Shown: positions 2,364 through 34,350 of the stretch, in pieces
How positions within the stretch are numbered: the first letter of the stretch is position 1
How the letters are laid out: each line of letters opens with the position of its first letter
Origin: Hymenobacter sp. YIM 151858-1
GTDB taxonomy: Bacteria > Bacteroidota > Bacteroidia > Cytophagales > Hymenobacteraceae
Direction: 5' to 3'
Assembly (NCBI RefSeq): GCF_025979705.1
Contig: NZ_CP110136.1
Location: 1,240,001 to 1,304,000 of the forward strand
DNA: 64,000 bases
Program-made: the position numbers and the translations under genes
Notes under the pieces: generated by a model
What the model saw: the letters and a program-made list of their open reading frames with translations, nothing else
Told to the model about the DNA's origin: nothing
Database searches by the model: none

Positions 2364-2456
2364 TCCAAGTAGGAATACGGCCAATGCGGCGCAAGTTACG
2401 AAACCGCGTTCAGCCAACGCTAGTTAGCTTAGCTGATATTCGGCATAGCGAATAGA

Positions 2457-2473
2457 AGTAATAGGCAACGCAG
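2457..2473. repeat. Outer inverted repeat, left arm, of the GIY-YIG cassette
   Basis: AGTAATAGGCAACGCAG at 2457-2473 matches the reverse complement of 2923-2939 at 14 of 17 positions. It lies immediately outside the inner 40-base repeat. Confidence 0.55.
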
Positions 2474-2474
2474 G

Positions 2475-2514
2475 CCGTCATGTCGAGCTTGTCGAGACAT
2501 CTCGCATGCTGACG
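2475..2514. repeat. Inner inverted repeat, left arm, of the GIY-YIG cassette
   Basis: A 40-base arm beginning CCGTCATGTCGAGC is identical at 39 of 40 positions to the reverse complement of 2866-2905; the only mismatch is at 2506. The arm itself contains an imperfect palindrome (ATGTCGA..TCGAGACAT), as REP elements do. Confidence 0.9.
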
Positions 2515-2529
2515 CCGGATAGTAAATAT

Positions 2530-2826
2530 CTAGCCATTCCAGGTAAGCGGATCGATAGGCGCCCAACTAGGATTGAGGGTATTGATTAACCAATCCTTTT
2601 TTGACCGGCTCCATTTTTTCAACTGCTTTTCTCGCATGATGGCCTGTGTGGCATCGGGCACGATTTCGAAGTATACTAACTGGTTACATTGATACCGACC
2701 AGTAAACTTTCCGGCGTCGCCTAACCCTTCACCGTGTTCGTAGAGCCGGCGTTCCAAGTTATTGGTTACGCCGATGTAGAGAACTGTGCGGGCAGGGTTC
2801 GTGAGAATGTATACACAGAAGCTCAT
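2530..2826 (-). CDS. Small GIY-YIG nuclease-family protein
   Basis: A 98-residue single-domain protein. Motif VYIL near the start and YIG about 11 residues later form the GIY-YIG core, followed by the family arginine in RRLYEH and a glutamate in the REKQLKKW helix; all catalytic positions of the fold look present. Proteins of this size are widespread in Bacteroidota but their cellular function is not established. I choose ATG at 2826 (MSFCVYIL), because the longer frame to 2874 starts inside the inverted repeat and adds 16 residues before the domain. The gene sits exactly between the arms of a near-perfect 40-base inverted repeat, leaving 15 bases on the stop side and 39 on the start side. 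It separates two unrelated housekeeping genes. Confidence 0.88.
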   Translation of the reverse strand: MSFCVYILTNPARTVLYIGVTNNLERRLYEHGEGLGDAGKFTGRYQCNQLVYFEIVPDATQAIMREKQLKKWSRSKKDWLINTLNPSWAPIDPLTWNG

Positions 2827-2865
2827 GCGGTAGATATTTTTAAACGCAGCCAATTTGCCATCTAA

Positions 2866-2905
2866 CGTCAGCACGCGAGATGTCTCGACAAGCTCGACAT
2901 GACGG
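2866..2905. repeat. Inner inverted repeat, right arm, of the GIY-YIG cassette
   Basis: Reverse complement of 2475-2514 with one mismatch. The innermost 31 bases (2875-2905) are perfect. The next gene, accC, starts only 77 bases further on. Confidence 0.9.
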
Positions 2906-2922
2906 TCGGCACTACCTCATTA

Positions 2923-2939
2923 CTGTATTACCTATTACT
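2923..2939. repeat. Outer inverted repeat, right arm, of the GIY-YIG cassette
   Basis: Pairs with 2457-2473 (14 of 17). Read on the minus strand it continues as AGTAATA GGTAATA CAGTAAT, a roughly 7-base periodic series similar in style to the intergenic arrays elsewhere in the window. Confidence 0.5.
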
Positions 2940-2981
2940 TTCGGCCTTCCAACCTTGCTCCCTCCCCTTGCCCCTTCTGGC

Positions 2982-32874: not shown

Positions 32875-34350
32875 TTGTACGCCATCATCGACCTAGAAAC
32901 CACCGGGGGCCAGCCCACGCAGGACCGCATCACCGAAATAGCCATTTTCATTCACGATGGCGAGAAGGTGGTCGATTCCTACACCACCCTGCTCAACCCC
33001 GGCCGTCCGATCCCCTTCTACATCCAACAGCTCACGGGCATCACCGACGAGATGGTGCGCGATGCCCCGCAGTTTCATGAGGTAGCCAAGAAGGTGGTGC
33101 AAATGACGGAGGGCTGCGTGTTCGTGGCCCACAACGTGCGCTTCGATTACTCTTTTCTGAAAAAGGAGTTTGCCGACCTAGGGTACACCTACTCGCGCAA
33201 AACGCTGTGCACGGTGCGCCTCAGCCGCTCGCTGATACCCGGCCAGCCCAGCTACAGCCTGGGCAAGCTGTGCGCCAACATCGGTATTGAGCTGAACAAC
33301 CGGCACCGCGCCTTCGGCGATGCCGAGGCCACCGCCATTTTGTTCGACCGCCTGCTGAAGATCAGCCAGGTGGCCGAAGCGCCCGGTTACGAGGCTGCCG
33401 CGCCGGCCGATAAGCTGGCCGCCGTGGATGCCGCCGCCCCGAGCGGCCGCCCGCAAAAGCAGCCCGCCCCGCGCAAGGTGGCGGCCGTGCAGCAGGCCAT
33501 CCGAACGGCGTTGCTGCCGCCGCTTATCACCCCCGAAAAAGTTGCCTCGCTGCCGCAGGAGGCCGGCGTGTACTACTTCCACGACGAGCACGGCGAGGTG
33601 ATTTACGTGGGCAAAAGCATCAACATCTACAAGCGCATTCAGCAGCACTTCGCCGTCGATTACAAGTCGCGCAAATCGTTGGAGTTTAAGAACTCCATTG
33701 CCGACATCACCTGGGAGCTGACGGGCTCGGAGCTGGTGGCTTTGCTGCACGAGTCGGCGGAGATTAAGCGCCTGAAACCGCAGTACAACCGGGCCCAGCG
33801 CCGCTCGGTGTTTCCGGCGGGCATTTACCTGCGCGTGGACGAGAACGGCTACAAGCGCCTGTACTACGGCCGCGCCGACGCCCGCAACAGCGAAATTCCC
33901 ATTATTGCCCTAGGCAACCAGTTTAAGGCCAAGGGTTTCTTGTACCACAAGGTGGCCAAGTACAACCTGTGCCAGAAGATGTGCGACCTGTACAAAACCA
34001 CCAGCTCGTGCTTCGACTTTCAGGTGCACCGCTGCAAAGGCGCGTGCGTGGGCCTGGAGCCGCCCGAAGAGTATAACGCCCGCGTGGATGAGGCCATCGA
34101 GAGCATCACCTACGAGCACCAGACTTTCGTGATTATCGGGCAGGGGCGGCGCGCCGGCGAGCGGTCGGTGGTGGTCATCGAGCACGGCCGCTACCTAGGG
34201 TTCGGCTACATCGACGAGACGTTTACCGCCCGGCGCTTCGAGGCGTTCAAGGATGTGATCAAGTCGCAGGTGGACAACAAAGACGTGCAGCAGATCATCA
34301 GGCAATACATGCGCTCCAAGCACAAGGATAAGGTGAAGGTGTTTGCCTAG
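32875..34350 (+). CDS. DnaQ-like exonuclease fused to a GIY-YIG (UvrC/Cho-like) endonuclease domain
   Basis: A 491-residue two-nuclease protein. Residues 1-165 form a DEDDh exonuclease: IIDLETTGG (metal Asp/Glu), HNVRFDYSF and HRAFGDAEAT. A Pro/Ala linker (about 180-210) leads to a GIY-YIG domain (AGVYYFHDEHGEVIYVGKS near 235) and a UvrC-like region with a possible Cys cluster (CQKMC, CFDF, CKGACVG). The arrangement is found in several bacteria beside or instead of Cho. It probably makes and trims incisions in DNA repair, but this is inference. The start is TTG at 32875, since no ATG lies upstream; MYAIIDLETTG is the expected N-terminus. TAAATTTG at 32829-32836 may be its -7 box. Confidence 0.88.
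   Translation: MYAIIDLETTGGQPTQDRITEIAIFIHDGEKVVDSYTTLLNPGRPIPFYIQQLTGITDEMVRDAPQFHEVAKKVVQMTEGCVFVAHNVRFDYSFLKKEFADLGYTYSRKTLCTVRLSRSLIPGQPSYSLGKLCANIGIELNNRHRAFGDAEATAILFDRLLKISQVAEAPGYEAAAPADKLAAVDAAAPSGRPQKQPAPRKVAAVQQAIRTALLPPLITPEKVASLPQEAGVYYFHDEHGEVIYVGKSINIYKRIQQHFAVDYKSRKSLEFKNSIADITWELTGSELVALLHESAEIKRLKPQYNRAQRRSVFPAGIYLRVDENGYKRLYYGRADARNSEIPIIALGNQFKAKGFLYHKVAKYNLCQKMCDLYKTTSSCFDFQVHRCKGACVGLEPPEEYNARVDEAIESITYEHQTFVIIGQGRRAGERSVVVIEHGRYLGFGYIDETFTARRFEAFKDVIKSQVDNKDVQQIIRQYMRSKHKDKVKVFA

Follow-up and report, generated by a model that had tools for sequence, protein, structure and literature searches.

In RAYT/REP-REPIN systems a small gene lies between inverted REPs, further REPs are dispersed through the genome and form inverted doublets, and the type of REP is tied to the lineage of the protein. 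The Ssn proteins of Neisseria, reportedly described in 2025, are said to be site-specific single-strand GIY-YIG nucleases whose cognate repeat occurs in hundreds of copies; they are reported to have many homologues, each with its own specificity, and are portrayed as ssDNA nucleases acting in transformation. One class of REPs, tagged CGTC, was reported to have no transposase of its own (Di Nocera, De Gregorio, Rocco 2013, PMC3733652). According to that paper these REPs have a CGTC (or TGTC, CCTC) tag, a stem of 8-9 bp starting A-T, T-A, a loop of 4-5 nt and a CCA tail, frequently form dimers and comprise four named families; as hosts it lists A. lipoferum, S. meliloti, N. aromaticivorans and Neisseria, the repeat names dRS3 / CGTC-1 are given for Neisseria, and the word GIY-YIG does not occur in it. 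A literature search, with most subscription papers and all preprints outside its scope, returned no paper linking bacterial GIY-YIG nucleases to REPs, REPINs or RAYTs: in the available text of PMC9465073 GIY-YIG and REP-type words co-occur in unrelated places only, and that of the RepRanger paper (PMC12306157) mentions neither nuclease nor GIY. We describe here a locus of Hymenobacter sp. YIM 151858-1 that we interpret, with a probability of about three in four, as a REP-nuclease cassette, in which a small GIY-YIG endonuclease and a CGTC-like REP with clade-specific stems form a matched pair that would work in a manner like RAYT and REPIN.

The window, a stretch of 64,000 nucleotides of this 4.6 Mb genome, carries the gene between a kbl-like gene and accC, both named from reading their translations, with the following features:

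2530..2826, minus strand: stand-alone GIY-YIG nuclease gene of 98 codons, ATG at 2826 to stop at 2530 (open reading frame list, PF01541, invariant residues; GTG 2874 is a longer alternative start)
2477..2514, plus strand: left REP arm, tag outward, CGTC from 2476 (55 further genomic sites)
2866..2903, minus strand: right REP arm, tag outward (37/38 against the left arm)
2515..2527, plus strand: left-arm tail CCGGATAGTAAAT, which resembles arm tails of REP doublets elsewhere
2456..2473, no strand: left outer arm, judged to be insertion site, outside the cassette (G005 site comparison)
2923..2940, no strand: right outer arm, judged to be insertion site (G005 site comparison)

In a profile search the product matched PF01541 with 64.3 bits (E 1.3e-17; curated cut-off 22.6 bits), and this was its only Pfam match at E 0.001, the Y1/HUH tyrosine transposase domain being absent at that threshold. 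Its closest named relatives are from Hymenobacter. Residues invariant in 49 relatives include Y7, Y18, G20, R28, H32, E67 and N86 (numbering of window 2533-2829), and we take Y7, Y18, R28, H32, E67 and N86 to be the catalytic-type residues of the GIY-YIG superfamily. A role in intron homing was rejected, the group I intron endonuclease profile TIGR01453 scoring 19.3 bits, far under its cut-off of 56.05, and a defence-system identity was likewise rejected after PADLOC returned no match.

A first reading made from the sequence alone had placed the 98-residue gene between 40-base arms complementary at 39 of 40 positions, and had seen in the arrangement a possible REP-associated nuclease cassette. 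The arms were confirmed at 2475-2514 and 2866-2905; without the two leading bases they form an inverted pair of 38 bases, 2477-2514 (+) and 2866-2903 (-), with an identity of 37/38 and the sequence GTCATGTCGAGCTTGTCGAGACATCTCGC[A/G]TGCTGACG. Fifteen bases separate the stop codon from one arm and 39 separate the other arm from the ATG. With the tag outward, the layout of an arm is CGTC-AT-GTC-GA-loop-GA-GAC-AT-CTCGC. The likeness to RAYT loci, apparent in the inverted, genome-dispersed REPs on either side of the gene, extends to inverted doublets of the gene's own REP type and to the tie between REP type and protein lineage, both described below. However, the window enzyme is a GIY-YIG protein (PF01541) whereas RAYTs are Y1/HUH tyrosine transposases, and the tag at window-type REPs is [C/T]GTC instead of GTAG; because enzyme and tag both differ, the gene is not a member of the RAYTs.

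Each arm had also been described as an imperfect palindrome, which is weakly true: a stem of 5 bp (ATGTC/GACAT) surrounds GA...GA, but the fold of a single arm is no better than that of its shuffles (z -0.22). The strand of the whole cassette folds with z -8.95 against shuffles. The single Hymenobacter arm is thus a weak hairpin, unlike two alphaproteobacterial and the Neisseria-type repeats folded alongside, and folding gave stems of 8-9 bp for the Neisseria- and Shinella-type repeats. The recurring GA...GA within the stem may pair in a non-Watson-Crick manner, to which the energy model gives no weight. Compared with the CGTC REPs described in PMC3733652, the arm, CGTCAT...ATCT, shares the CGTC/TGTC tag, the A-T, T-A start of the stem and the frequency of inverted dimers (32/55 sites, 16 tag-outward pairs; see below), and differs by its 5-bp stem and CTC tail as opposed to 8-9 bp and CCA; it is CGTC-like and outside the four families named there. 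Since the arms are intergenic, an alternative is that they are common bidirectional terminators, or hairpins with a regulatory role, between which a small gene lies by chance. We consider this extremely improbable: the poor fold of the single arm, together with the lack of any Rfam match at E 1, ruled out a stable hairpin or terminator, and such elements would not account for a stem type that tracks the clade of the protein and is identical on both sides of 85/99 genes, as reported below.

The arm is dispersed throughout the genome. BLAST of the 521-base region against its own genome gave 107 matches, and the 104 rows outside the window's own region merged into 55 further sites of the arm; a strict GTC pattern found 58 copies and its reversed form none. 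A neighbour lay less than 300 bp away at 32 of the 55 sites, and all 16 neighbouring pairs in this genome are tag-outward, the random expectation being about 0.2 pairs (computed for 56 sites). These doublets fall into length classes of 92-99 bp (4), 176-177 bp (3), 201-216 bp (8) and 272 bp (1). Four of about 200 bp have a common interior, 78.9 to 86% identical in the longer aligned pieces, which holds a nested repeat of another type, and the doublets of this size look like miniature units bounded by arms; the ends of these four were read and showed no target-site duplication. Tails akin to the left-arm tail were found as TCGGATAGTA in G004 and as CCGGATAGC and similar sequences in the window's own genome. 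A scan of 464 kb of this genome with a generic REP motif was too noisy, with 32 matches against 17 for the reversed control.

PF01541 matched eight genes of the genome. Five of them, the window gene (L008) included, are small, and all five lie between inverted repeats of three stem types (GTC, GTC, TGC, TGC and CCT), so that other GIY-YIG genes with like flanks are indeed present. Two of the small genes, L009 and L013, are frame-broken or affected by assembly errors. The three larger GIY-YIG frames (617, 579 and 257 codons) lack the window-family arm save for one 14-base match. The 579-codon open frame (L014) lies in the window itself, its GIY-YIG domain at 33562-33789 being the second of the window, and has no window-family arm nearby.

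We then compared the site among eight genomes of the genus. The adjacency of kbl and accC is kept in seven; in G006 the region upstream of accC did not show it. Only the window's own genome carries the GIY-YIG gene there. The intergenic region of G007 (whose KBL is 99% identical), G003 and G001, read by eye, contains no REP, and that of G005, G004 and G002 contains REP doublets of three different types without the gene, so that sites empty of the gene do exist upstream of accC. Together, the arm copies, the similarly flanked GIY-YIG genes and these gene-less sites support the cassette as first proposed. The same comparison bears on a pair of 17-base outer arms (14/17) that the sequence-only reading had nested around the inner ones. 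The pair is real, being 83% complementary at 2456-2473 and 2923-2940 and taken in by an 83-base inverted repeat (77%), but we judge it part of the site and not of the unit, because G005, in which the gene is missing, has comparable outer arms (32 nt, 88%) flanking a different REP doublet; a nested cassette was thereby ruled out. The kbl-accC intergenic regions of L154 and L160 contain strings of short repeats of the GGTAACAGGTGACACGT kind around the site, and such strings may explain the outer arms of the window.

The generality of this arrangement was assessed in a flank survey built from 80 named loci and 118 relatives (83 with a match), stretches being taken for many matches. From 234 rows we kept 207 non-redundant genes, 182 of them strong (E up to 1e-20), and scored 180 after dropping two with short flanks. 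A motif REP of the GTCAT type was located within 350 bp of 143/180 genes, as against 100/847 control stretches; an outward-facing REP pair was found at 83/180 genes and 2/847 controls, and an inverted repeat (IR) score of at least 18 at 117/180 genes and 2/847 controls. Among the 37 genes without a motif REP, 27 had an IR of at least 18, for the most part repeats beginning GTC[A/C]T, which left 10/180 genes with neither. A second control of 25 weak, distant GIY-YIG matches gave one outward pair, six with any REP and seven with an IR, and in the group of distant weak matches L257-L268 neither REP nor IR was seen in 12/12. A stop interrupted the translated match in 9/80, in some solely near the C-terminus. 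At L200 (G008:C18) a near-perfect inverted repeat of about 160 bp, unusually long, flanks the GIY-YIG gene on both sides.

Boxing like that of the window recurs in loci of Pseudomonadota and Cyanobacteriota and in one of Chloroflexota (L091, the only one), which has outward REPs on both sides. In five Clostridia loci REPs are present upstream only (three), downstream only (one) or on both sides (one). A plasmid collection yielded 32 matching records, of which 16 were chosen for organism spread and examined: 14/16 loci are boxed, 12 by an IR of at least 18 and those of Planktothrix and Spirosoma by the motif on both sides, with an IR of at least 18 in 3/80 overlapping stretches of these loci taken as controls; of the two unboxed loci, Rhizobium tumorigenes shows no repeats and Photobacterium has motifs on one side only. 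On the Azospirillum lipoferum plasmid AZO_p3 (L297, 1498-1791) the boxed GIY-YIG gene is situated between sufB and sufC of Fe-S assembly, and on the Planktothrix agardhii plasmid p1 (L301, 1492-1776) the gene is situated between an annotated type IIL restriction-modification enzyme MmeI and DISARM drmA.

The REP stem follows the protein, other GIY-YIG genes with flanks of this kind each having a REP type of their own. A stem triplet was readable on both flanks of 99/182 genes and was identical on the two sides in 85 of these 99. Mapped onto a tree of 130 proteins, stem type changes 28 times, compared with a mean of 83.1 for shuffled labels and with 0/200 shuffles as low, in a test that related sequences inflate. 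Four genes of the window's own genome occupy four separate places on this tree, with stems GTC, GTC, TGC and CCT, and each stands beside same-stem genes of other species. Genus genomes with a GTC-type gene contain 58 (G000), 56 (G001), 68 (G002), 150 (G004) and 83 (G006) GTC REPs, as against 6 (G003), 33 (G005) and 6 (G007) in those without; the types of G001, G002, G004 and one G007 gene were taken from named loci whose contig coordinates match. In G083, 135 GCT REPs stand without any GIY-YIG match. REP copies thus persist without the gene, as the lack of a matching gene in G083 (135 GCT) and G005 (33 GTC) indicates.

The same genomes allowed us to weigh whether a transposase of the RAYT/IS200 type mobilises the REPs, the GIY-YIG gene being a passenger caught between two of them. 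Such enzymes are at hand, Y1_Tnp giving 13 matches in 6/8 genus genomes with four in the window's own, but none of the 12 Y1_Tnp genes with a locus has a motif REP within 350 bp; over whole loci of about 3.2 kb, 11/12 are free of the motif, the exception being L320 with a single weak match about 1.4 kb away. Moreover, G002 and G006 have no Y1_Tnp match, yet keep 68 and 83 REPs, and a passenger would leave unexplained why the REP stem tracks the GIY-YIG tree. We therefore regard this explanation as very improbable. The Y1_Tnp genes at L319, L313, L318, L321 and L323 are flanked by unrelated inverted repeats of their own, for example GCGGACTTTGTAGTCCGC near L319, and two REP systems may coexist in the genus.

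Within the window's clade the cassette occurs as an arm-bounded unit at different sites. In seven comparisons of cassettes from this clade the BLAST stretches measured 355-418 bp and ended within the arms or a few bases past them; between the window and L018 and between the window and L016 the second arm matched as a separate piece. Six loci of the clade represent five different sites. At L016 and L018 (3938-4353) the flanking genes are alike and the cassette has the opposite orientation, as if it had been inverted in place between its arms. In the GCT/GTT sister clade, by contrast, 24 loci have common flanking genes in two neighbouring positions, a synteny that is due to inheritance and not to movement. 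Movement is thus supported for the window's clade only, the sister clade being largely syntenic, and, given the flanking genes common to these 24 loci, vertical maintenance over long periods plays a part as well. The near-perfect arms had initially been taken as a sign of recent movement or of maintained function. They turned out to reflect the family consensus and are no proof of recent movement. Neither a transposition event nor a donor-recipient pair was found among the loci compared. Ratios of dN/dS were 0.03-0.19 in the 16/36 pairs with dS under 4, and none of the eight pairs involving the window gene gave a defined dS; judged from these sequence comparisons, the relatives of the window gene appear to be under purifying selection.

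Inverted-repeat-boxed GIY-YIG genes were found in A. lipoferum, S. meliloti, N. aromaticivorans and Neisseria, the boxing repeats of S. meliloti and N. aromaticivorans being without the GTCAT form. The N. gonorrhoeae homologue, a putative Ssn with 43.5% identity to the protein of L010, is boxed by CGTCATTCCC repeats that we take to be dRS3 / CGTC-1, and a small GIY-YIG gene associated with its repeat is what the window locus and Ssn have in common. The Ssn precedent would lower the novelty of our observation and make cleavage of the cognate repeat more plausible. A rival reading is an Ssn-like nuclease directed at a target repeat and devoid of any role in mobility: a single-strand cutter of incoming DNA at REPs that modulates natural transformation, with REPs spreading by other means and the gene kept near its target. 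The boxed N. gonorrhoeae homologue favours such a function, and the GCT/GTT synteny and the purifying selection fit a host role. On its own, however, it leaves unexplained the outward tags on two sides, the unit boundaries at different sites and the length classes of the doublets, and we hold it to be rather unlikely. The REP-nuclease cassette is nonetheless compatible with an Ssn-like effect on incoming single-stranded DNA.

For the cassette itself we observed outward-tagged flanking REPs, dispersal often as inverted doublets, recurrence in other phyla and a stem that tracks the protein tree; from these we infer that the nuclease mobilises the REPs. In the proposed mechanism the nuclease would bind its cognate REP, exposed as single-stranded or cruciform DNA, and nick it near the tag; repair or template switching at the nick could then copy or move REP doublets and occasionally the whole cassette. 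The system would work like RAYT-REPIN, except that a GIY-YIG enzyme replaces the tyrosine transposase. For a large class of bacterial repeats, the GIY-YIG family looks to be the partner that had been missing. A wider proposition, which we put at somewhat below even odds, is that stand-alone GIY-YIG nucleases are dedicated, REPIN-like mobilisers of the CGTC-type REP superfamily across phyla and that a few positions, candidates being 36, 41, 47 and 72, read the stem triplet. With a GIY-YIG partner that diversifies together with the REP stem, the question raised by Di Nocera et al. becomes directly testable. Such a partner would be a second class of enzyme that can sustain REP/REPIN populations, and the matched nuclease-repeat pairs offer a natural series for how a 98-residue GIY-YIG protein reads DNA.

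As regards this protein-REP code, weighted mutual information singled out columns 36, 41, 47, 72 and 73 among others. In tree-independent pairs, K72 against T at stem position 2 (5.1 to 0, 13 pairs) and R36 against T at stem position 3 (3.8 to 0, 9 pairs) each came first in the list. For stem position 1, K41 and Q47 fell outside the top eight, T41 with C gave 4.6 to 0.7 in 15 pairs, and other columns did equally well or better (V26, 4.0 to 0 in 5; K68, 4.7 to 0.2 in 15). Restriction to well-supported branches left one pair. Columns 36, 41, 47 and 72 of the window protein are accordingly offered as a lead only, as candidate readers of the stem triplet drawn from alignment statistics.

An AlphaFold2 model of the window protein (pLDDT 91) is closest to the UPF0213 protein 1zg2, its sole structural match at E 0.001 or better, followed with weak E-values by domains of Slx1, UvrC and I-TevI; a sequence search against structures returned UPF0213 1zg2 and 1ywl only. 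The likeness of the window protein to the UPF0213, Slx1 and UvrC GIY-YIG domains is one of fold. As far as the titles of the structural matches tell, Slx1 processes branched DNA, and the resemblance of the predicted structure to Slx1 would be in keeping with a structured target.
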